Assembly: GCF_017983445.1 (NCBI RefSeq)
Contig: NZ_JAGOBJ010000011.1
Span: 1 to 64,000 of the forward strand
Source of the DNA: Halomonas sp.
Lineage (GTDB): Bacteria; Pseudomonadota; Gammaproteobacteria; Pseudomonadales; Halomonadaceae
Direction of reading: 5' to 3'
DNA length: 64,000 bases
Of the stretch, positions 52,162 to 60,267 are shown piece after piece (position 1 is the first letter of the stretch; the number at the start of each line of letters is the position of its first letter). The position numbers and the translations under genes are program-made. Below the pieces are notes generated by a model that ran no database searches, was not told the DNA's origin, and saw nothing but the letters and a program-made list of their open reading frames with translations.

Positions 52162-53034
52162 ATGAGTCAAACAGCTACCGCACCGAAGGCCGACACTGTT
52201 AAGGCGCTTCGTCAGCGAGCTTACAATATTCGCCGCCATGCCCTGCGCATGGGTGAGGTGCAAGGTCAGGGCTATGTGGGTCAAGCTCTGGGAATCGCCG
52301 ATGTACTGGCTGTTTCCTACTTCCACGCTTTAAAAATCGATCCTAAAAATCCCGAATGGGAAGAGCGAGACCGTTTTCTGCTTTCCATAGGCCACTACGC
52401 CATCGCTCTTTACGCCGCTCTGATCGAGGCCGGTGTAATCAGCGAAGACGAAATCGAGGATTACGGCAGCGACGACAGCATCCTGCCTATGTCCGGCATG
52501 GCCGCTTATACACCGGGTATGGAAATTACCGGCGGCTCTCTGGGCCACGGCCTGGGTATCGGCGTCGGCATGGCGCTGGGGCTCAAGCGAAAACAGAGCG
52601 CTTCGCGAATTTTTAACCTGTTGTCGGATGGCGAACTCAATGAAGGCTCCACTTGGGAAGCCGTCGCCTCCGCGTCCCACTTCAAACTGGATAACCTGAT
52701 TGCCATCGTCGATGTCAACGACCAGCAGGCCGACGACAAGTCTTCCCTGGTGCTCAACTATGAGCCGATCGCTGATAAGTGGATGGCGTTTGGCTGGGAA
52801 ACCTACCGCGTTGATGGCAACGACCTTGAAGCCGTGCTGGAAGCCTTTGATAGTGCTTTGGCAAGCAACTCCGACAAGCCCCGTGTGATCATCTGCGACA
52901 CCTTGATGGGCCGTGGTGTGCCGTTTTTAGAAAAACGGGACAAGAACCACTTTATTCGTGTGGATGAAAACGAATGGAGCGTGGCGCTCAAAGAGCTTGA
53001 TGAAGTTTACGGTATTCAGTCAGGGGAGAAATAA
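52162..53034 (+). CDS. Transketolase, N-terminal subunit
   Basis: 290 aa carrying the pyrophosphate-binding half of a split transketolase. TPP/Mg motif LSDGELNEGSTWEAV near 153-167 with DVNDQQAD near 189, and GSLGHGLGIGVGMA near 126-139. GGAGG lies 8 bp upstream of the ATG. Split transketolases transfer two-carbon ketol units and often belong to catabolic clusters for unusual sugars (known cases: apulose-4-phosphate, sulfofructose). The operon starts here. Confidence 0.9.
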   Translation: MSQTATAPKADTVKALRQRAYNIRRHALRMGEVQGQGYVGQALGIADVLAVSYFHALKIDPKNPEWEERDRFLLSIGHYAIALYAALIEAGVISEDEIEDYGSDDSILPMSGMAAYTPGMEITGGSLGHGLGIGVGMALGLKRKQSASRIFNLLSDGELNEGSTWEAVASASHFKLDNLIAIVDVNDQQADDKSSLVLNYEPIADKWMAFGWETYRVDGNDLEAVLEAFDSALASNSDKPRVIICDTLMGRGVPFLEKRDKNHFIRVDENEWSVALKELDEVYGIQSGEK

Positions 53035-53035
53035 G

Positions 53036-54031
53036 ATGAGCGCCAAGAAGAAGCTTAAAACGTCGGCCATGATCGCCTCCATCGCGGGGGAAGACCAGCC
53101 GACTACCTCGGCGCCGTTCGGCCACGCGCTGGTCGAAGCTGCCGGGAAAAACGACAAGATCGTCGGTATGACCGCGGACCTGGGCAAGTACACCGACCTG
53201 CATATTTTTGCTCAGGCCTACCCCGAGCGTTATTACCAGATGGGCATGGCCGAGCAACTGCTGATGATGTCAGGGGCGGGCATGGCTCGCGAAGGCTTCA
53301 TTCCCTTCGTGACTACCTACAGCGTGTTCGCTTCACGCCGCGCCTACGACTTTATATGCCTGGCGATTGCCGAAGAGAACCTCAACGTCAAGATCGTCAG
53401 CGCCTTGCCTGGCCTCACTACCGGCTACGGCCCGAGCCACCAGGCCACCGAGGATGTCGCCATCTTCCGCGGCATGCCGAACCTGACCATCCTCGATCCG
53501 TGCGATGCGGTGGATATCGAACAATCCGTCCAGGCGATGGTAGATTTCAACGGCCCGGTGTATCTGCGCCTACTGCGGGGCAGGGTGCCGCGCGTGCTCG
53601 ACCGCTTCGAAGGCTACCGTTTCGAAATCGGCAAGGCCAAGCAACTGATTGATGGAAAGGACGCCTTGATCATCTCGTCGGGCCTAATGACCATGCGCGC
53701 CATTGAAGCTTCCGACGAGCTCAAGAAGATGGGCAAAGAGGTTGGCGTGCTGCACTGTGGCACCATTAAACCGCTGGATACCCAGGCCATTCTGGAAGAA
53801 GTGCGCCGTTACCCGAACCGCCCCGTTTTCGTTGCCGAAAACCACTCGGTGGTCGGGGGATTGGGTGAAAGCGTAGCCTCGCTTTTGATGAAAGAAGGTG
53901 TCGCCGTCAAGTTCTACCAGATCGGCCTGCCGGATGCGTTTCTGGATGCTGGCGCGCTGCCTACCTTGCACGACCGCTACGGTATTTCCACCAAGGAGGT
54001 CATTAAGACCATCGAACAGCACGTTGTTTGA
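53036..54031 (+). CDS. Transketolase, C-terminal subunit
   Basis: 331 aa with the pyrimidine-binding and C-terminal domains. The catalytic Glu is in MGMAEQLLMMSGAGMAREGF near 68-87; FASRRAYDF, TTGYGPSHQATEDVAIFRGM and VAENHSVVGGLGESVASLL are further family stretches. ATG at 53036 lies one base after the stop of the N-terminal subunit, GGGGAG 8 bp upstream; coupling assures equal amounts of both chains. Confidence 0.9.
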   Translation: MSAKKKLKTSAMIASIAGEDQPTTSAPFGHALVEAAGKNDKIVGMTADLGKYTDLHIFAQAYPERYYQMGMAEQLLMMSGAGMAREGFIPFVTTYSVFASRRAYDFICLAIAEENLNVKIVSALPGLTTGYGPSHQATEDVAIFRGMPNLTILDPCDAVDIEQSVQAMVDFNGPVYLRLLRGRVPRVLDRFEGYRFEIGKAKQLIDGKDALIISSGLMTMRAIEASDELKKMGKEVGVLHCGTIKPLDTQAILEEVRRYPNRPVFVAENHSVVGGLGESVASLLMKEGVAVKFYQIGLPDAFLDAGALPTLHDRYGISTKEVIKTIEQHVV

Positions 54032-54102
54032 CACGTAAGTTTTCTCACTCGTTGATATGCCAGTCACAACCTACAACAATTAATTTAACTGAGAGAAACG
54101 TC

Positions 54103-55083
54103 ATGAAAAAAACTGTACTTGCTACTGCCGTTGCCGGTGCCGTGTTGTTTGCAGGAAACGCCGCCGCCCAGCAGGTTCTTCAGCTGACCCACAACGCAGC
54201 GGAAGGCAACCCCAAGTGGGAAGCCTCCGCGCTTTTTGCCGAGCTGGTTGAGGAAAAGACCGACGGTGAACTGAGAGTCGATGTTGGCGGCAACGCCCAG
54301 TACGGCGACGATATGGAAGCCTTGACGCTTATGCGCATGGGTACTTTGGCGTTCAGTACCAATAGTCAGGGCGCTACATCAAGCGTTGTGCCGCAGTTCT
54401 CCGTGCTAGGGCTGCCTTTTCTCTTCGACTCGCTGCCCGCGGCCTGGGAGGTCATGGATGGCGAAGTAGGTGAAGAGCTCAAGCGCCTAGCAGAAGAGCA
54501 GCACCTGGTGCTGCTCGGCCTGTGGGATAACGGCATTCGTCACGTCAGCAACAACGTGCGCCCGATCGAGATGCCGGAAGATCTGCGAGGCCTGAAGATT
54601 CGCACGCCGCCGGATGAAATGACGGTGGATATTTTCGAGGCGCTGGGCGCCAACCCCACGCCCATGAACTTCTCCGAGCTTTACATCGCGCTTGAGCAGG
54701 GCGTGGTGGATGGCCAGGAAAATCCCCTGATGAATACCTACTCCTCAAAACTTCACGAAGTTCAGGACTACATCTCGTTGACCGGGCACAAGTACGAATC
54801 CACGCCGCTGCTCATGAGCAAGATGATGTGGGACATGCTCACGCCGGAACAGCAGCAGGCGGTTCAGGAAGCGGCCGACGAGGCGGGTGAATTCAACCGT
54901 CAGGCGTCTTTAGAAGCCGATGAGAAGCTGCGTACTCTTCTGGAAGATGCCGGTGTCGCCATCAATGAGGTCGATACCGCACCTTTTGTCGAGGCGACCT
55001 CATCGGTCTACGACCTGTGGCGTGAAGAGTACCCCGAGCTTGTGGACATGGTGGTGGACGCCGCTCATAACGGGCAGCAGTAA
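54103..55083 (+). CDS. dctP: TRAP transporter substrate-binding protein, DctP family
   Basis: 326 aa with signal peptide (MKKTVLATAVAGAVLFAGNA, cut near AAA-QQ). Family features: DVGGNAQYGDDMEAL, LKIRTPPDEM near 161 (conserved Arg that binds the ligand carboxylate), MNFSELYIALEQGVVDGQEN. The conserved Arg argues for an acidic ligand. The TRAP ligand is not identifiable from sequence. Confidence 0.9.
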   Translation: MKKTVLATAVAGAVLFAGNAAAQQVLQLTHNAAEGNPKWEASALFAELVEEKTDGELRVDVGGNAQYGDDMEALTLMRMGTLAFSTNSQGATSSVVPQFSVLGLPFLFDSLPAAWEVMDGEVGEELKRLAEEQHLVLLGLWDNGIRHVSNNVRPIEMPEDLRGLKIRTPPDEMTVDIFEALGANPTPMNFSELYIALEQGVVDGQENPLMNTYSSKLHEVQDYISLTGHKYESTPLLMSKMMWDMLTPEQQQAVQEAADEAGEFNRQASLEADEKLRTLLEDAGVAINEVDTAPFVEATSSVYDLWREEYPELVDMVVDAAHNGQQ

Positions 55084-55102
55084 CAAACCGGAGGGGCATT
55101 TC

Positions 55103-55666
55103 ATGACGCTCTCAGCTGAGAGCCGCAAAAGCGAAGCCGGCCCGCCGGCTTCGCTTCTAATCGGCTCGAAAAATGTGATTTATCAGATATCCAAGTGGGT
55201 GGCGATCATCTCGATCGTGACCATTTTCGTATCCCTGCTCACCGGTGTGGTGATTCGCTACCTTTTCTCGACGAACCTTGGCTGGGTGACGGAAATTCCC
55301 AACCTGTTTTTCCCCTGGCTAACCATGGGTGCCATCGTGGCGGCAGCCGCTAAAAACGAACATATCGGCATCGAGCTGGTGGTGGAAAAGCTGCCAAGAC
55401 TCCCTCGGAAAGTCGTGACACTCAGTGTCAACGTGATCGCGCTGGTGGCTTTCAGCACCATGGCCTATCACGGTTTGAACGTGGTGGATATCGCTGGCGG
55501 CCAGCGCTTTCCCATTACGCGCCTTGGCATGTCCTGGGCGTACTGGTCGGTGGTAGTCGGGTTTGCAGGGCTGGCGCTGGTCGCGCTGGTCAATATCGCG
55601 TTGACTCTGGTGGTCGGTGAGGCGCAGGCCGACCCGCAGGTCTCGCACGGGGAGGAAGGAATATGA
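55103..55666 (+). CDS. dctQ: TRAP transporter small permease, DctQ
   Basis: 187 aa with four hydrophobic segments (about 35-60, 70-90, 110-130, 150-175), including FFPWLTMGAIVAAAAKNEHI. GGAGG upstream of the ATG at 55103. Overlaps dctM by four bases (ATGA). Confidence 0.88.
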   Translation: MTLSAESRKSEAGPPASLLIGSKNVIYQISKWVAIISIVTIFVSLLTGVVIRYLFSTNLGWVTEIPNLFFPWLTMGAIVAAAAKNEHIGIELVVEKLPRLPRKVVTLSVNVIALVAFSTMAYHGLNVVDIAGGQRFPITRLGMSWAYWSVVVGFAGLALVALVNIALTLVVGEAQADPQVSHGEEGI

Positions 55667-56922
55667 CGGTTCAAATGCTCGCGGCGTTTGTTCTTTTCTT
55701 GCTGATGGCCATGCCGGTCGGATATTCGCTGGTCATCAGTGGCTGGGCGGCGCTTTCGGTCTTCGGCCCCATGCCATCGAGCATGGCAATCATGAAGATT
55801 TTCCAGCCTACTCAGAGCTTCCCTCTGCTGGCGATTCCCTTCTTCATTCTGTCCGGTAGCTTAATGATGTCGGGCAAGCTTGGGCAGAAGTTGGTGGGAC
55901 TTGCTTCGATGCTGGTGGGTAAGTATCACGGCGGGCTCGGTCAGGTAAGCGTGGTGGGCTCGACGGTGTTCGGGGGCGTGTCCGGTTCATCGGTAGCGGA
56001 AGCCTCGGCGCTTGGATCGATGCTCATCCCCTGGCAGAAACGGGAAGGCTACCCCGGCGCGTTCGGCGCGGCGGTCACATCGGCGTCCTCGGTCATCGCG
56101 GGACTGATGCCGCCATCGATTCCGCTGATTCTGTTTGCCACCGTGTCAAACACCTCGATCGCGTCGCTGTTCATCGCCGCGGTCATTCCTGCGCTGATGC
56201 TGGCGGCGGGCATGATGCTGGCCTGTTACTTTGTGGGTAAACGCCGCGGTTTTCCTCGCCTTACTCTCAAACACACGCGCGTCGAGATGATAAACACGCT
56301 GTTTACCGCGCTGCCGGCGCTATTGATGCCGGTATTCATCGTGGTGCTGCTGAGAGCCGGTATTGCCACGCCCACCGAGGTCAGCATTATCGCCGTAGCC
56401 TATGCGCTGGTAGTCAGCGGTACCATCTATCGCGACTTGACTGGCGAGCGGGTGATGGCGGCGCTGGTCAACACGGTGATTACCACGGGGATCGTGATGC
56501 TGATCATCGCGGCGGCCAATATCATCGCGTATATCCTGACCTCTGGCGGCGTGCCGCAGGCCGTGGCCCAGTGGGCCGTCGAGTATCTAAAACACCCGCT
56601 TCTGATCATTCTGGCGATCAATTTGCTGCTGCTGTTAATCGGCATGTTCCTGGATTTGCCTGCTGCCATCCTGCTCCTGGGGCCCACACTTGTCTCAATC
56701 GCCAACGCGATCGGCCTGGATCTGGTGCAGCTCGGCATCATTATGTGTGTGAACCTGAGTATCGGTCTGTTTACGCCGCCTATTGGCACGACGCTGTTCG
56801 TCTCCGCGGCGATTGCCCGTGAGCGTATCGGCGCGGTCGTCAAGGAACTCGTACCTTTCTATCTGGTGGCCATTATCGTGCTGCTGCTTGTCTCCTACAT
56901 ACCGGCATTGATCATCTACTGA
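55663..56922 (+). CDS. dctM: TRAP transporter large permease, DctM
   Basis: 419 aa, twelve or more hydrophobic segments: GWAALSVFGPMPSSMAI, VFGGVSGSSVAEASALGSML, PPSIPLILFATVSNTSIASL, and the C-terminal LSIGLFTPPIGTTLFVSAAI. With DctP and DctQ makes a Na+-coupled importer. Confidence 0.92.
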   Translation: MTVQMLAAFVLFLLMAMPVGYSLVISGWAALSVFGPMPSSMAIMKIFQPTQSFPLLAIPFFILSGSLMMSGKLGQKLVGLASMLVGKYHGGLGQVSVVGSTVFGGVSGSSVAEASALGSMLIPWQKREGYPGAFGAAVTSASSVIAGLMPPSIPLILFATVSNTSIASLFIAAVIPALMLAAGMMLACYFVGKRRGFPRLTLKHTRVEMINTLFTALPALLMPVFIVVLLRAGIATPTEVSIIAVAYALVVSGTIYRDLTGERVMAALVNTVITTGIVMLIIAAANIIAYILTSGGVPQAVAQWAVEYLKHPLLIILAINLLLLLIGMFLDLPAAILLLGPTLVSIANAIGLDLVQLGIIMCVNLSIGLFTPPIGTTLFVSAAIARERIGAVVKELVPFYLVAIIVLLLVSYIPALIIY

Positions 56923-56930
56923 GGTTCGAT

Positions 56931-57836
56931 ATGCATAACATAGCCTTTGCAGGACTCGGCGCCATGGGCCGCCCCATGGCGACGTGCTTGAAGAGCGCCG
57001 GCCTCGACGTACTGGGGATCGATGCGTTCGAGCAGATTGAAAACGCCTTCAACGGTCAGCCCACCTCCAGTGAGGCAAAGCGCCGCTACCTCAATGAGTG
57101 CGAAGCGCTGTTCATCATGGTGGTGAACGCCGAGCAGGTGCGCGCCGTACTGTTTGGTAACGATGCAGCTGACGATACAACATCAAGCGTGGTGCATTCG
57201 CTGAAAGACGGCGCCTGTATCGTGCAGATGTCGACCATCGCGCCGGGCGACGCCGCCGATATCGCCACCGAAGTGGCGGCAGTGCGCCCGGACCTTCACT
57301 ACATCGACGCGCCGGTGTCCGGTGGCGTCGTCGGTGCCCAAGCCGGGGATCTGACCATCATGGCTGCCGGCAGCGATGAGGCACTCGCCCGTTGTTCGCA
57401 GGCCTTCGATGTAATAGGCAAGGCGGTGTTCGTCGCAGGCCCCACGCCGGGTCAAGGGGCAGCCATGAAAGCCGTCAATCAATTGCTGTGCGGCGTGCAT
57501 ATCGCCGCAGCCGCCGAGGCGCTGGCGCTGGCGGAAAAGAGCGGCATCGAAGCATCGGTCATGCTCTCCATGGTTCAGGGCTCGGCCGCCTCAAGCTGGA
57601 TGCTCAAGGATCGCGGCCCGCGTATGATTTCAGAACCCGGCGATGTCACCAGCGTCATCGATATTTTTTGTAAGGACATGGGCATCGTCTGCGACTCCGC
57701 CAAGGCATCCAGAGCGTTCACCCCACTGGCGGAAACCGCCCGGCAGATGTTTGTGGCAAGCTCCGAGCGTGGTGAGGGCAAGCTCGATGACAGCCAGCTC
57801 ATCCGCACCTACCGCTTACTCAATGGTCGGAGCTGA
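56931..57836 (+). CDS. 3-hydroxyisobutyrate/L-threonate dehydrogenase-type oxidoreductase
   Basis: 301 aa beta-hydroxyacid dehydrogenase. Rossmann GLGAMGRPMA at 8-17, substrate motif DAPVSGGVVGAQAG near 126-139, catalytic Lys180 in GQGAAMKAVNQLL. LtnD (L-threonate 2-dehydrogenase) and sulfolactaldehyde reductase both belong here, as do tartronate-semialdehyde reductases; sequence alone does not choose. Eight bp after dctM. Confidence 0.85.
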   Translation: MHNIAFAGLGAMGRPMATCLKSAGLDVLGIDAFEQIENAFNGQPTSSEAKRRYLNECEALFIMVVNAEQVRAVLFGNDAADDTTSSVVHSLKDGACIVQMSTIAPGDAADIATEVAAVRPDLHYIDAPVSGGVVGAQAGDLTIMAAGSDEALARCSQAFDVIGKAVFVAGPTPGQGAAMKAVNQLLCGVHIAAAAEALALAEKSGIEASVMLSMVQGSAASSWMLKDRGPRMISEPGDVTSVIDIFCKDMGIVCDSAKASRAFTPLAETARQMFVASSERGEGKLDDSQLIRTYRLLNGRS

Positions 57837-57844
57837 AACGCCCT

Positions 57845-58693
57845 ATGGCGATGTCAACGAGCTTTATATCCGTCAGTACTGCCGCCTTCGATGGCTACGG
57901 GTTCGATGTGATCCTGCCATCGCTTGCGCGCTGCGGGGTGAAAAATGTCGAGTTCGCGTTCATCGATGGCTACGTCGAAGCGTTTACCGACAGCGATTTC
58001 ACCCAGTCCTTCGCCAACGACTTGAACAGCGAAATGCACCGCCATGGCCAGCAGTGTCGTTACTTTTCAGGCCATATCGACCTGGGGCTCGAGAACGCTG
58101 CCGCCCGGCTTGAAGCGCGCTGCCGTTTCGCGGCGTGGCTGGGGGCCGAGTTCATTATTACCAATGCAGCCGTGCGTGAATACGAGCGCACGTTCTTCAA
58201 GCAGGCCGATACCCTGGCCGCTATTGCACGCGACCACGGCGTGCGTATTCTGCTGGAAAACCCCGGTAACGGGGTTCCCAACCTCTTCGATAGCGCAAGC
58301 GATGCGCAGGCGCTGCTCGAGCGATTGGGTGATGACGCCTTTGGCATCAACTACGACATGGGTAATCTGCTGTCGCATTCTCCTCATCAGAATGCACTTG
58401 ACGACGCCGGGGCAGCCATGTCGATTACCGATCACTATCATCTCAAGCCCTGCGTTCGTCACGGCGACGGCATCGACTTTGTGTCGTTCGGCGCAGGTGA
58501 TACGGAAGATGCAGCGCTTGCCCGGGCGCTGCTTGATCAGGGCAAACCATTTTCGCTGGAACTACCGTTTCGTCTGCACCGCGATGCCCGCGCTCAGCCT
58601 TGGCGCGATGAACAACCCGTGGCGCTCGAAAGAATCGAGTCGCTCATTTTACGCTCCCTTGAGGAGCTGGCTTTACTTACCCAATATCAGTAA
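57845..58693 (+). CDS. Xylose isomerase-like TIM-barrel protein
   Basis: 282 aa, AP-endonuclease-2/sugar-phosphate-isomerase superfamily. Probable metal ligands: Glu in LLENPGNG near 138, Asp in NYDMGNLL near 174, His in SITDHYHLKPC near 195-205 and Glu in SLELPFR near 239. Hydroxypyruvate isomerase and OtnI (2-oxotetronate isomerase) share this fold and often accompany LtnD-type enzymes. Eight bp after the dehydrogenase. Confidence 0.8.
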   Translation: MAMSTSFISVSTAAFDGYGFDVILPSLARCGVKNVEFAFIDGYVEAFTDSDFTQSFANDLNSEMHRHGQQCRYFSGHIDLGLENAAARLEARCRFAAWLGAEFIITNAAVREYERTFFKQADTLAAIARDHGVRILLENPGNGVPNLFDSASDAQALLERLGDDAFGINYDMGNLLSHSPHQNALDDAGAAMSITDHYHLKPCVRHGDGIDFVSFGAGDTEDAALARALLDQGKPFSLELPFRLHRDARAQPWRDEQPVALERIESLILRSLEELALLTQYQ

Positions 58694-58705
58694 GAGGAAA
58701 ATGTC

Positions 58706-59458
58706 ATGCTGCTTAAAGACAAGGTATGTATCGTGACCGGCGCGGCCGGCGAGAAAGGCATTGGCCTGCGAACCGCGCGGCTTTTCTACGAGCACGGTGC
58801 GTCCATCGTGATTTCCGATATCAATGAACAGGCCTGCGAGGCAATTAGCGAAGAGTTCGACGCCGAGCGCTCGCTGGTCGTCACGGGCAACGTGGTTAGC
58901 CGTGATGATTGCTTCGACCTGGCCCGCGCTGCGATGGAAAAATTCGGCAGAATCGATGTGCTGGTGAACAACGCAGGCGTTACCCAGCCGGTCAAGTTCG
59001 AAGAGATAAAGCCCGAAGATTACGACCGCATTATGGACGTCAACCTGCGTGGCATGATGTACATGTCCCAAGCCGTGGTACCGCACATGAAGCAGGGCGG
59101 AACGGGGTCGATCATCAATACCTCATCGGTTTCCGCCCAGCGCGGCGGTGGTATCTTTGGTGGCCCGCACTACAGCGCGGCCAAGGCGGGAATGTTAGGC
59201 CTTGGCAAGGCCATGGCGCGGGAGCTGGGGGCTTCGGGCATCCGTGTCAACTCGGTAACGCCAGGTTTGATTACCACCGAGATCACTGCCGGCAAGCTGG
59301 ACGATCAGATGAAGGCCAAGATTATCGAAGGCATTCCGTTGGCCCGCCTGGGTGCACCGGACGATATCGCCAATGCCTTCCTGTTTCTGGCAAGCGACCT
59401 TTCCAGCTACATCACCGGCGCCACGCTTGATGTGAACGGCGGTATGCACATTCACTGA
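58706..59458 (+). CDS. SDR-family dehydrogenase
   Basis: 250 aa. GAAGEKGIGLRTA (cofactor), NNAG near 92, INTSSVSAQRGGGIFGGPHY followed by SAAK (Ser, Tyr-x3-Lys). Last catabolic gene in the cluster. The Glu-Lys insert in the glycine motif (GAAGEKGIG) is unusual. It may oxidise the imported hydroxy compound to the ketose used by the transketolase (inference). Confidence 0.85.
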   Translation: MLLKDKVCIVTGAAGEKGIGLRTARLFYEHGASIVISDINEQACEAISEEFDAERSLVVTGNVVSRDDCFDLARAAMEKFGRIDVLVNNAGVTQPVKFEEIKPEDYDRIMDVNLRGMMYMSQAVVPHMKQGGTGSIINTSSVSAQRGGGIFGGPHYSAAKAGMLGLGKAMARELGASGIRVNSVTPGLITTEITAGKLDDQMKAKIIEGIPLARLGAPDDIANAFLFLASDLSSYITGATLDVNGGMHIH

Positions 59459-59547
59459 CTATGATAAGCTGCCCCTGTACTTATAATACGTACTTATATT
59501 GCACCAGCGATCACGACAGGGTATAGGGGTGGCACTTGGATGACGTT

Positions 59548-60267
59548 ATGAGCCAAATCGATCCGAACCTTTTGGATAGGCTTAAGGAGTTTGTTTCCGT
59601 CTCCGAACTGTCCAAGGATGGCCGGTTGAAACTTCCGCCTGAAAGAGCGCTCTGCGAGCACTTCGACATGCACCGCTCGTCGGTCAGGAACGTTCTTTCG
59701 ATCTTGCACAGCCTTGGGTTCATTGAGCGCAAGCAGGGCAGTGGTACCTTTCTCAAGATGCCCGAGCCAGTGTTTATTCAGCTCTATTTTGAGCTGGCGC
59801 TCAAACTCAATTATATCTCGGTAGATCATCTCGAAACTGCCCGGGAGATGTTTGAAAAAGAGATTGTTCAAGCAGCCGCCGTCAACCATCAGGCCCATGA
59901 ATTAGCCAAGCTTGAGGTACTTTGCAGCAAGATCGTCAACTCCACTGATGTACTTGAAGGCATCCAGGCAGATTACGAGTTTCATGAGCTATTGGCGATT
60001 ATGGCCAAAAATCCTGCCGTGCTGATTATTTTTCAAGGGCTCTCATCGGTTCTCAAGAAAGTGCTTCACCAGCGCAGAGTTCTAGCCAGACAATCCAAAG
60101 AAGCACAAAAGAAAACTAACGAGACGCATATCGCAATCGTTGATGCCATCAAAACCCGTGATCGGGAGTTGGCGCGCCAGGCAATGCATGATCATTTTGA
60201 AACCTGGAACCAGCACACAATGCGCACTTTCAAAGAGTTAAGAACCCCCGATTTGCTGGCCGAATAA
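59548..60267 (+). CDS. FadR-family GntR regulator of the TRAP/transketolase cluster
   Basis: 239 aa. N-terminal winged helix (SKDGRLKLPPERALCEHFDM, RSSVRNVLSILHSLGFIERK, QGSGTFL) and all-helical FCD effector domain with the metal-binding-type DYEFHELLAIMAKNP near 144-158 and HIAIVDAIKTRDRELARQAM near 194-213. TTG at 59536 is an alternative start. It ends the cluster, 77 bp or more after the SDR, with a direct repeat GTACTTATA (59477 and 59490) in that gap. Likely repressor acting on the two palindromes at 51846 and 52132. Confidence 0.85.
   Translation: MSQIDPNLLDRLKEFVSVSELSKDGRLKLPPERALCEHFDMHRSSVRNVLSILHSLGFIERKQGSGTFLKMPEPVFIQLYFELALKLNYISVDHLETAREMFEKEIVQAAAVNHQAHELAKLEVLCSKIVNSTDVLEGIQADYEFHELLAIMAKNPAVLIIFQGLSSVLKKVLHQRRVLARQSKEAQKKTNETHIAIVDAIKTRDRELARQAMHDHFETWNQHTMRTFKELRTPDLLAE

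Follow-up and report, generated by a model that had tools for sequence, protein, structure and literature searches.

Known split transketolases and related pathways

Split transketolases, in which the PP domain and the Pyr and C-terminal domains are carried on two chains, have been described as limited to archaea and some thermophilic bacteria (PMC7661550). A solved example is ChTK from Carboxydothermus hydrogenoformans (6yaj/6yak). SqwGH, which takes unphosphorylated sulfofructose as its donor, is likewise split and belongs to a catabolic cluster (PMC11659671). Here, we describe a gene cluster at positions 52162-60267, on the plus strand, of a 64,000-nucleotide stretch of Halomonas sp. DNA (contig NZ_JAGOBJ010000011.1, positions 1 to 64,000), referred to below as the window. 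It encodes a split transketolase with an atypical active site, an importer of the tripartite ATP-independent periplasmic (TRAP) type, an LtnD-like dehydrogenase, a xylose-isomerase-like TIM barrel protein, a short-chain dehydrogenase/reductase (SDR) and a GntR/FCD regulator. From sequence comparison, and with a probability that we put at roughly 0.4, the cluster would be an uptake-and-degradation unit for an anionic, aldonate-type sugar acid, built around the SDR and the split transketolase.

ChTK and the window enzyme share their division into two chains, the thiamine diphosphate (ThDP)/Mg site and their overall sequence. The closest solved chain to the ThDP-binding half of the window enzyme, tkN, is 6yak (E 8e-62), whilst that to the pyrimidine and C-terminal half, tkC, is 6yaj (E 6e-64). 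ChTK nevertheless has His, His, Arg, Ser, His and Asp at the positions equivalent to 26, 100, 358, 385, 461 and 469 of the E. coli enzyme, and the window enzyme lacks all six. SqwGH, for its part, carries the motif R-A-F-D-R (PMC11659671), where the window enzyme reads Y-Y-L-R without the first Arg, so that the motif of the sulfosugar enzyme is absent. The restricted distribution reported for split transketolases (PMC7661550) is contradicted by genomes in GTDB, as many mesophilic Pseudomonadota are found among the best 80 of at least 583 stretches encoding such enzymes.

The pathway formed by LtnD, OtnI, OtnK and OtnC has TRAP genes, an LtnD-like dehydrogenase and a barrel of the AP_endonuc_2 family in common with the window cluster. 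It differs in that the window dehydrogenase falls below the LtnD cut-off, the barrel is not OtnI, and neither OtnK nor OtnC is encoded in the cluster. AptAB, which Carter et al. are said to have described in 2018, is reportedly a split apulose-4-phosphate transketolase of D-apiose pathways; compared by description with these pathways, the window cluster shares the split transketolase but has no kinase. In the 5-keto-D-gluconate step a transketolase likewise acts on an (omega-1)-keto aldonate (PMC12016104, PMC11066805), although there the enzyme is engineered or merely proposed, whereas a dedicated natural family is proposed here. In Rhizobium leguminosarum, the genes RL2718-RL2725 form a cluster that encodes an SDR and a CUT2 binding protein along with two transketolases and, compared by gene content, resembles the Rhizobium variants among the loci considered here. 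A role in arabinogalactan metabolism has been suggested for it, and the available text gives no pathway (PMC3333776). In the literature searched, outside which most subscription papers lie, no description was found that assigns a pathway to the window's gene set, which agrees with a preliminary description of this DNA that had singled the cluster out as a candidate for an undescribed pathway. The gene set would encode a catabolic pathway that relies on a transketolase, one whose active site is distinct and whose substrate probably is too.

Active site of the split transketolase

Pfam models place the PP domain and the Pyr and C-terminal domains on two separate open reading frames, and the best NCBIfam model for both halves is transketolase (for tkC, 216 bits against 187 for dxs). 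Residues are numbered here as in E. coli TktA, and counts refer to alignments of 118 tkN and 124 tkC sequences, not de-duplicated; 117 distinct tkN sequences occur among 125 loci. The canonical ThDP/Mg site is intact, with His66, Asp155, Glu160 and Asn185 retained in 118 of 118 tkN, as is His261, and with Glu411 retained in all 124 tkC, which also keep His473 and Arg520.

His26 and His100 are substrate-pocket residues of transketolase. Neither canonical histidine is present in the split tkN, where the first is Tyr and the second Ser (118/118). Throughout the 124 tkC, Ser385 and Phe434 are replaced by Tyr and His461 by Leu, Asp469 aligns with a gap, and the equivalent of Arg358 is never Arg (0/124). 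The motif R-S-F-H-R (358, 385, 434, 461 and 520), by which ordinary transketolases orient the phosphate of their substrates (PMC11659671), is thus reduced in every tkC to the Y-Y-L-R mentioned above.

The full-length transketolases encoded on the same loci retain His26, His100, His461 and Arg520 in 13 of 13 cases, and their motif is R-S-F-H-R in four, I-P-Y-H-R in eight and W-A-Y-H-R in one. Enzymes of the I-P-Y-H-R kind are encoded downstream of the split transketolase, on the same strand, in L083, L085, L111, L117, L120, L132 and L144, and through them the C2 units may finally enter the pentose phosphate pathway.

Several of the altered positions have a history in enzyme engineering. Tyr385, introduced into transketolase for aromatic aldehydes, would clash with the substrate phosphate (PMC5073344). 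H100L together with D469T allows a stabilised E. coli transketolase to take pyruvate as donor, and Arg520 is able to orient carboxylates (PMC10787763). The variant R358I/H461S/R520Q converts 5-keto-D-gluconate to tartaric semialdehyde (PMC12016104), a transketolase step that has also been proposed in grapevine (PMC11066805). Judged from the alignments, the natural split family unites several changes known to shift transketolase away from sugar phosphates, and its members probably act on an unphosphorylated substrate. The earlier suggestion of such a transketolase is in this respect strengthened, the phosphate-binding motif being remodelled in all 124 relatives. As for Ser385Tyr, the odds are a little short of even that evolution arrived at a substitution which engineers put into the E. 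coli enzyme.

Conservation of the cluster

Among 201 genomes of the family, 27 have the barrel at E 1e-15, one of them being the source genome, and its surroundings were examined in the other 26. In six loci of the family the tkN DNA is identical to that of GTDB records named as Halomonas, Salinicola or an unclassified gammaproteobacterium, which makes this the Halomonas family. Genes for the split transketolase, TRAP importer, barrel, SDR and GntR regulator occur together in 19 of these 26 loci, and the order transketolase-TRAP-(LtnD)-barrel-SDR-GntR is kept in 18. In L051 the genes of the cluster, minus the LtnD-like one, are rearranged, with the transketolase and GntR genes divergent. The LtnD-like gene lies near 15 of the 19 split-transketolase loci; it is missing from L031, L047 and L051, whilst L045, from the same genome as L026, has only a short piece. 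L046 is cut by a contig end. With its gene order kept in relatives, the arrangement of the cluster is more than chance.

Six further loci of the family (L048-L050 and L052-L054) have the TRAP, barrel and SDR genes with no split transketolase in the 16 kb examined, and all six carry a gene of the DAK kinase cluster. L050 also has genes for a triosephosphate isomerase (TPI)-like and an RpiB-like protein, a SorC-type regulator, a ribose-type ABC transporter and a Zn-dependent dehydrogenase, a set of tetritol or erythrulose type. In these six loci the same module for import may feed into a different route downstream.

Beyond the family, neighbourhoods were read from codon-usage gene calls and by frame-independent tblastn. 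In a sample of 398 genomes of the phylum, 24 match the tkN profile at E 1e-90, the source genome again being one of them. From the GTDB scan the best 80 stretches encoding tkN relatives, all at least 65% identical, were taken as named loci; as best matches to the query, they over-represent close relatives. The loci from L055 upward, made non-redundant by tkN DNA, form a set of 98 in which some Halomonas remain (e.g. L062, L066 and L070) and from whose denominator contig-cut loci were not removed.

Near 86 of these 98 loci an SDR is encoded that is at least 45% identical to the best of three SDR queries, two of which come from loci within the set; in 82 cases it shares the strand of the transketolase and lies no more than 6.5 kb away. 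The association of SDR and split transketolase recurs in alpha-, beta- and gammaproteobacteria. Acidovorax sp. GW101-3H11 (L097), for one, has the split transketolase together with SDR and TRAP genes, and Halomonas campaniensis SK03 (L065) carries the same cluster as the window. DctP is found near 73 of the loci, an LtnD-like gene near 32, an Amidohydro_2 protein near 15 (its best model, L-fuconolactonase, is far under cut-off) and a DAK kinase near 14. A LysR regulator (81/98) stands near most other split transketolases, where the window cluster has its GntR/FCD protein. A second type of barrel lies near 11 loci and the window's own type near nine, the latter being absent from most split-transketolase loci of other taxa.

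Eight kinds of gene were counted around the transketolase (SDR, LtnD-like, two barrel types, DAK, TRAP, ABC binding protein and Amidohydro_2). Of these, the SDR and TRAP kinds are the sole ones beside it at 25 of 103 loci, the named and the sampled taken together, so the SDR product is likely to be the transketolase substrate. The core of the system is the SDR and the split transketolase; the barrel and the LtnD-like enzyme are accessories. In L098 the operon also encodes a 2-hydroxyacid dehydrogenase and a MOFRL-family glycerate 2-kinase-type protein, a dehydrogenase and a kinase being what tartronate semialdehyde or hydroxypyruvate would need. Elsewhere (L070, L071 and L088), DAK, RpiB and other such genes adjoin the split transketolase.

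The best models for transporters near split transketolases are a D-galactonate transporter in L143 and a metabolite/H+ symporter in L113, both under cut-off, and their sequences suggest that the transporters are acid importers. The closest solved relatives of the window's DctP are TRAP binding proteins, the ligand class being read from few PDB titles. An AlphaFold model of DctP built with 52 sequences has a predicted local distance difference test (pLDDT) score of 90.

The split transketolase family extends wider than this cluster. Many of the named loci are from Methylobacterium, whence the idea of formaldehyde as an acceptor, as in an enzyme like dihydroxyacetone synthase. More distant split transketolases are encoded in L163 (tkN 53%) and L164; L163 also has a mandelate-racemase-type acid-sugar dehydratase, and L164, on inspection by eye, a gene that resembles it. 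A DRL protein cluster (PF21135, typed on the L111 member) lies near the split transketolase in L111, L132, L154, L156 and L161, and in L168 and L169 proteins with an N-terminus similar to that of the DRL cluster are seen, by eye, close to genes of the OtnK family.

A proposed pathway

In the proposed pathway, an anionic sugar acid would be imported by the TRAP transporter. The SDR would oxidise its penultimate carbinol, next to the terminal CH2OH, to give an (omega-1)-keto acid, HOCH2-CO-(CHOH)n-COO-. From this the two-chain ThDP enzyme would take the C2 ketol, HOCH2-CO, and hand it to an aldehyde. What remains would be an aldehydo acid with two carbons fewer, namely tartronate semialdehyde in the case of a pentonate and glyoxylate in that of a tetronate. 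The LtnD-like dehydrogenase and the barrel could either process this remainder or convert another stereoisomer to the same keto acid, whilst the GntR/FCD protein would switch the cluster locally. As the substrate, a C5 acid has a slight edge; the resulting tartronate semialdehyde would fit both a dehydrogenase of the LtnD/GarR type and the L098 operon.

More generally, split ThDP enzymes that carry out ketol transfer on unphosphorylated keto acids, and that are recognised by His26Tyr, His100Ser and a pocket reading Y-Y-L-R, may form a widespread and hitherto undescribed class, which together with the SDR would make for kinase-free, aldolase-free degradation of sugar acids in Pseudomonadota; we hold this tentatively, as a proposal with not quite even chances. 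If it is true, there is a natural transketolase that is independent of sugar phosphates, and a sugar-acid route that bypasses dehydratases, kinases and aldolases. The enzyme would also be a potential natural biocatalyst for reactions that have hitherto required engineered E. coli transketolase. Split tkN is common (24 of the 398 sampled genomes of the phylum and at least 583 GTDB stretches encoding relatives, with the residue changes counted in 118 tkN and 124 tkC), and assignment of a substrate would annotate many genomes whose genes read just 'transketolase'.

A number of observations weigh against this proposal, several of them concerning the active site. Arg or Lys is found one residue ahead of the Arg358 position in 58 of 124 tkC, and position 384 is Lys in 123, so that some phosphate binding by the split transketolase may persist. 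A phosphorylated acceptor for the C2 unit is itself doubtful, because the phosphate site is changed. The loss of Arg358 and Ser385 is shared by nine of the 13 full-length enzymes. By analogy with the engineered enzymes, the loss of His100 may mean that the donor is pyruvate or a methyl-ketone rather than a hydroxyketone. The engineered enzyme for 5-keto-gluconate had lost Arg520 (PMC12016104), which the split family keeps, and the engineered S385Y had been selected on aromatic aldehydes (PMC5073344).

Other points on the same side come from gene content. Twelve of the 98 loci, some of them short contigs, have no SDR nearby that reaches 45% identity; L113 and L158 have the transketolase and an LtnD-like gene in an operon with no such SDR nearby. 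DctP is near 12 of the 23 phylum-sample loci, compared with 66 of the 80 best-matching named loci, and variants with ABC and Amidohydro_2 genes may start from a neutral sugar. The six family loci with DAK genes and no split transketolase in 16 kb suggest a C3 or C4 ketose. These loci and several relatives of the barrel connect it with DAK-type kinases and hence with dihydroxyacetone or erythrulose, which speaks for a route through erythrulose in those species at least. The link to a glycerate kinase is seen at one locus, L098.

Accessory enzymes and the genome's own tetronate genes

For the LtnD-like enzyme the best NCBIfam model is L-threonate dehydrogenase (ThreonDh), with 272 bits, short of the cut-off of 350, and it is 39% identical to the LtnD of the same genome. 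The preliminary description had likened the barrel to hydroxypyruvate isomerase, and this assignment finds no support. No NCBIfam family matches the barrel at E 0.001, the sole model at E 0.2 is IolO, and neither the OxoTetrIsom nor the OH-pyruv-isom model matches even at a maximum E of 10. It has no phmmer match in the PDB at E 0.01, and its likeness to the genome's own 2-oxo-tetronate isomerase is weak (E 0.006 over 81 residues). Distant relatives of the barrel, 25-36% identical, are encoded on plasmids of R. tropici (L057), Klebsiella (L058) and Pasteurella (L059) beside genes for DhaK/DhaL, RpiB, TPI, transaldolase or transketolase, the set differing from record to record.

On another contig of the source genome (C14:50500-69500, L168) there is a canonical tetronate cluster, ThreonDh/OxoTetrIsom/OxoTetrKin/OxoTetrPhDc, in which all members score over the NCBIfam cut-offs: LtnD 433.6, OtnI 400.5 (cut-off 325), OtnK 620 and OtnC 346.9 bits. 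TRAP genes adjoin it, as do, by eye, transporter genes of the tripartite-tricarboxylate type. OtnK and OtnC had been described as missing, which is correct for the nine genes of the window cluster but not for the genome. Because a complete tetronate set lies on another contig, the window cluster is taken to do something else; it would not be the tetronate pathway, though its substrate may be a similar acid. At C1:42143-44067 of the source genome (L170), downstream of TRAP genes, a RuBisCO-like protein that scores 379 bits with the OiaX model (cut-off 700) is encoded directly before an OtnK-family PF07005 protein, and a second sugar-acid pathway is possible there. The genome also encodes a glycerate kinase of family PF02595, and no match to a MOFRL glycerate kinase was found in it.

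Alternative explanations

The association of the barrel with DAK genes bears on an alternative that, although unlikely, is the most probable of those considered. A C5 acid would enter by the TRAP importer, the SDR would make a beta-keto acid of it and the barrel would decarboxylate this to erythrulose, which the split transketolase would use unphosphorylated in place of a DAK-type kinase, TPI and RpiB. The model for the decarboxylation is OiaC, reportedly a 3-oxo-isoapionate decarboxylase. Such a route would account for the six loci of the family in which TRAP, SDR and barrel genes are combined with a DAK gene in place of the transketolase, and for the TPI-like, RpiB-like and SorC-type genes of L050. 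It is also in keeping with the barrel relatives beside DhaK/DhaL in Shinella, Rhizobium tropici and Pasteurella records, with the DAK and RpiB genes of L070, L071 and L088, and with a source genome that has no match to Dak1. The barrel is not a general step before the transketolase, however, because its two types lie near only nine and 11 of the 98 loci; as an optional gene it makes a poor candidate for a general decarboxylase ahead of that enzyme. A disproportionation to erythrulose in the source organism was also considered and is unlikely in view of the missing Dak1 match.

Rather less probable is a C4 variant, in which the SDR, or the LtnD-like enzyme with the barrel, would produce 3-oxo-tetronate and the transketolase would split this into glyoxylate and the C2 ketol, replacing OtnK and OtnC. 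The nearness of the dehydrogenase to L-threonate dehydrogenase and to the genome's own LtnD is what such a route would call for, as are L113 and L158, where the operon has an LtnD-like gene and no SDR reaching 45% identity lies near. It has to contend with a dehydrogenase score below the cut-off, a barrel that is not OtnI and a genome already provided with LtnD, OtnI, OtnK, OtnC and adjoining TRAP genes. The canonical OtnK pathway can be rejected for the cluster, which has no OtnK or OtnC, a sub-threshold LtnD and a barrel other than OtnI.

The enzyme might not transfer ketol groups at all. In an acyloin-forming enzyme resembling DXS, an acetyl or acetaldehyde unit would come from a methyl-ketone or 2-oxo acid; the equivalents of His100 and Asp469 are lost, and engineered changes at these positions gave acceptance of pyruvate (PMC10787763). 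Although tkC does match the dxs model, transketolase is the better model for both halves, and the TRAP importer, the partners of sugar-acid type and the SDR suit a hydroxylated substrate, which makes this reading improbable. Still less can be said for an ordinary, spare sugar-phosphate transketolase that sits by chance among unrelated catabolic genes. The intact ThDP and Mg residues, the retained Arg520 and the basic residue beside position 358 in 58 of 124 sequences would be expected of it, but the universal alteration of the phosphate motif, the linkage to the SDR across classes and the presence elsewhere in the genome of a full-length transketolase (540 bits) render it very improbable. A sulfosugar pathway of the SqwGH kind has the slimmest chance of all those considered. 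The division of SqwGH into two chains and its unphosphorylated donor (PMC11659671) are points of likeness, and the LtnD-like dehydrogenase weakly matches the sulfolactaldehyde reductase model (127 bits, cut-off 348), but the difference in active-site motif described above is the main ground for discarding it. No gene of a sulfosugar type scores over its Pfam or NCBIfam cut-off among the nine genes of the cluster.

Organisation of the cluster

Model searches with Pfam and NCBIfam identify nine genes, comprising eight structural genes and the regulator (Table 1). Seven linked genes and a FadR regulator had been announced; all of the genes named are present, in order and on the plus strand, whilst the structural genes number eight. 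Taken in order, the structural genes are spaced by 1, 71, 19, -4, 8, 8 and 12 bp, as calculated from the coordinates, DctQ and DctM overlapping by 4 bp. The TRAP importer is complete, each of the subunits DctP, DctQ and DctM scoring over its Pfam cut-off. No kinase or aldolase is found among the nine genes by the same models, as had been claimed, and the notion of a self-contained unit for uptake and degradation is likewise supported.

Table 1. Genes of the Halomonas sp. cluster, with positions in the window
Gene	Position	Strand	Description and models
tkN	52162-53034	+	ThDP-binding half of split atypical transketolase; PF00456, E 1.5e-40
tkC	53036-54031	+	Pyrimidine and C-terminal half of split transketolase; PF02779, PF02780
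DctP	54103-55083	+	TRAP solute-binding protein; PF03480, over cut-off
DctQ	55103-55666	+	TRAP small permease; PF04290, E 7e-24; start set by comparison with L062
DctM	55663-56922	+	TRAP large permease; PF06808, E 2e-119
LtnD-like beta-hydroxyacid dehydrogenase	56931-57836	+	PF03446, PF14833
Xylose-isomerase-like TIM barrel (AP_endonuc_2)	57845-58693	+	PF01261, E 3.5e-16
SDR dehydrogenase	58706-59458	+	PF13561, E 8e-71
GntR/FCD regulator	59536-60267 (alternative ATG 59548)	+	PF07729, PF00392

The 3.9 Mb source genome has 25 matches to DctP in total.

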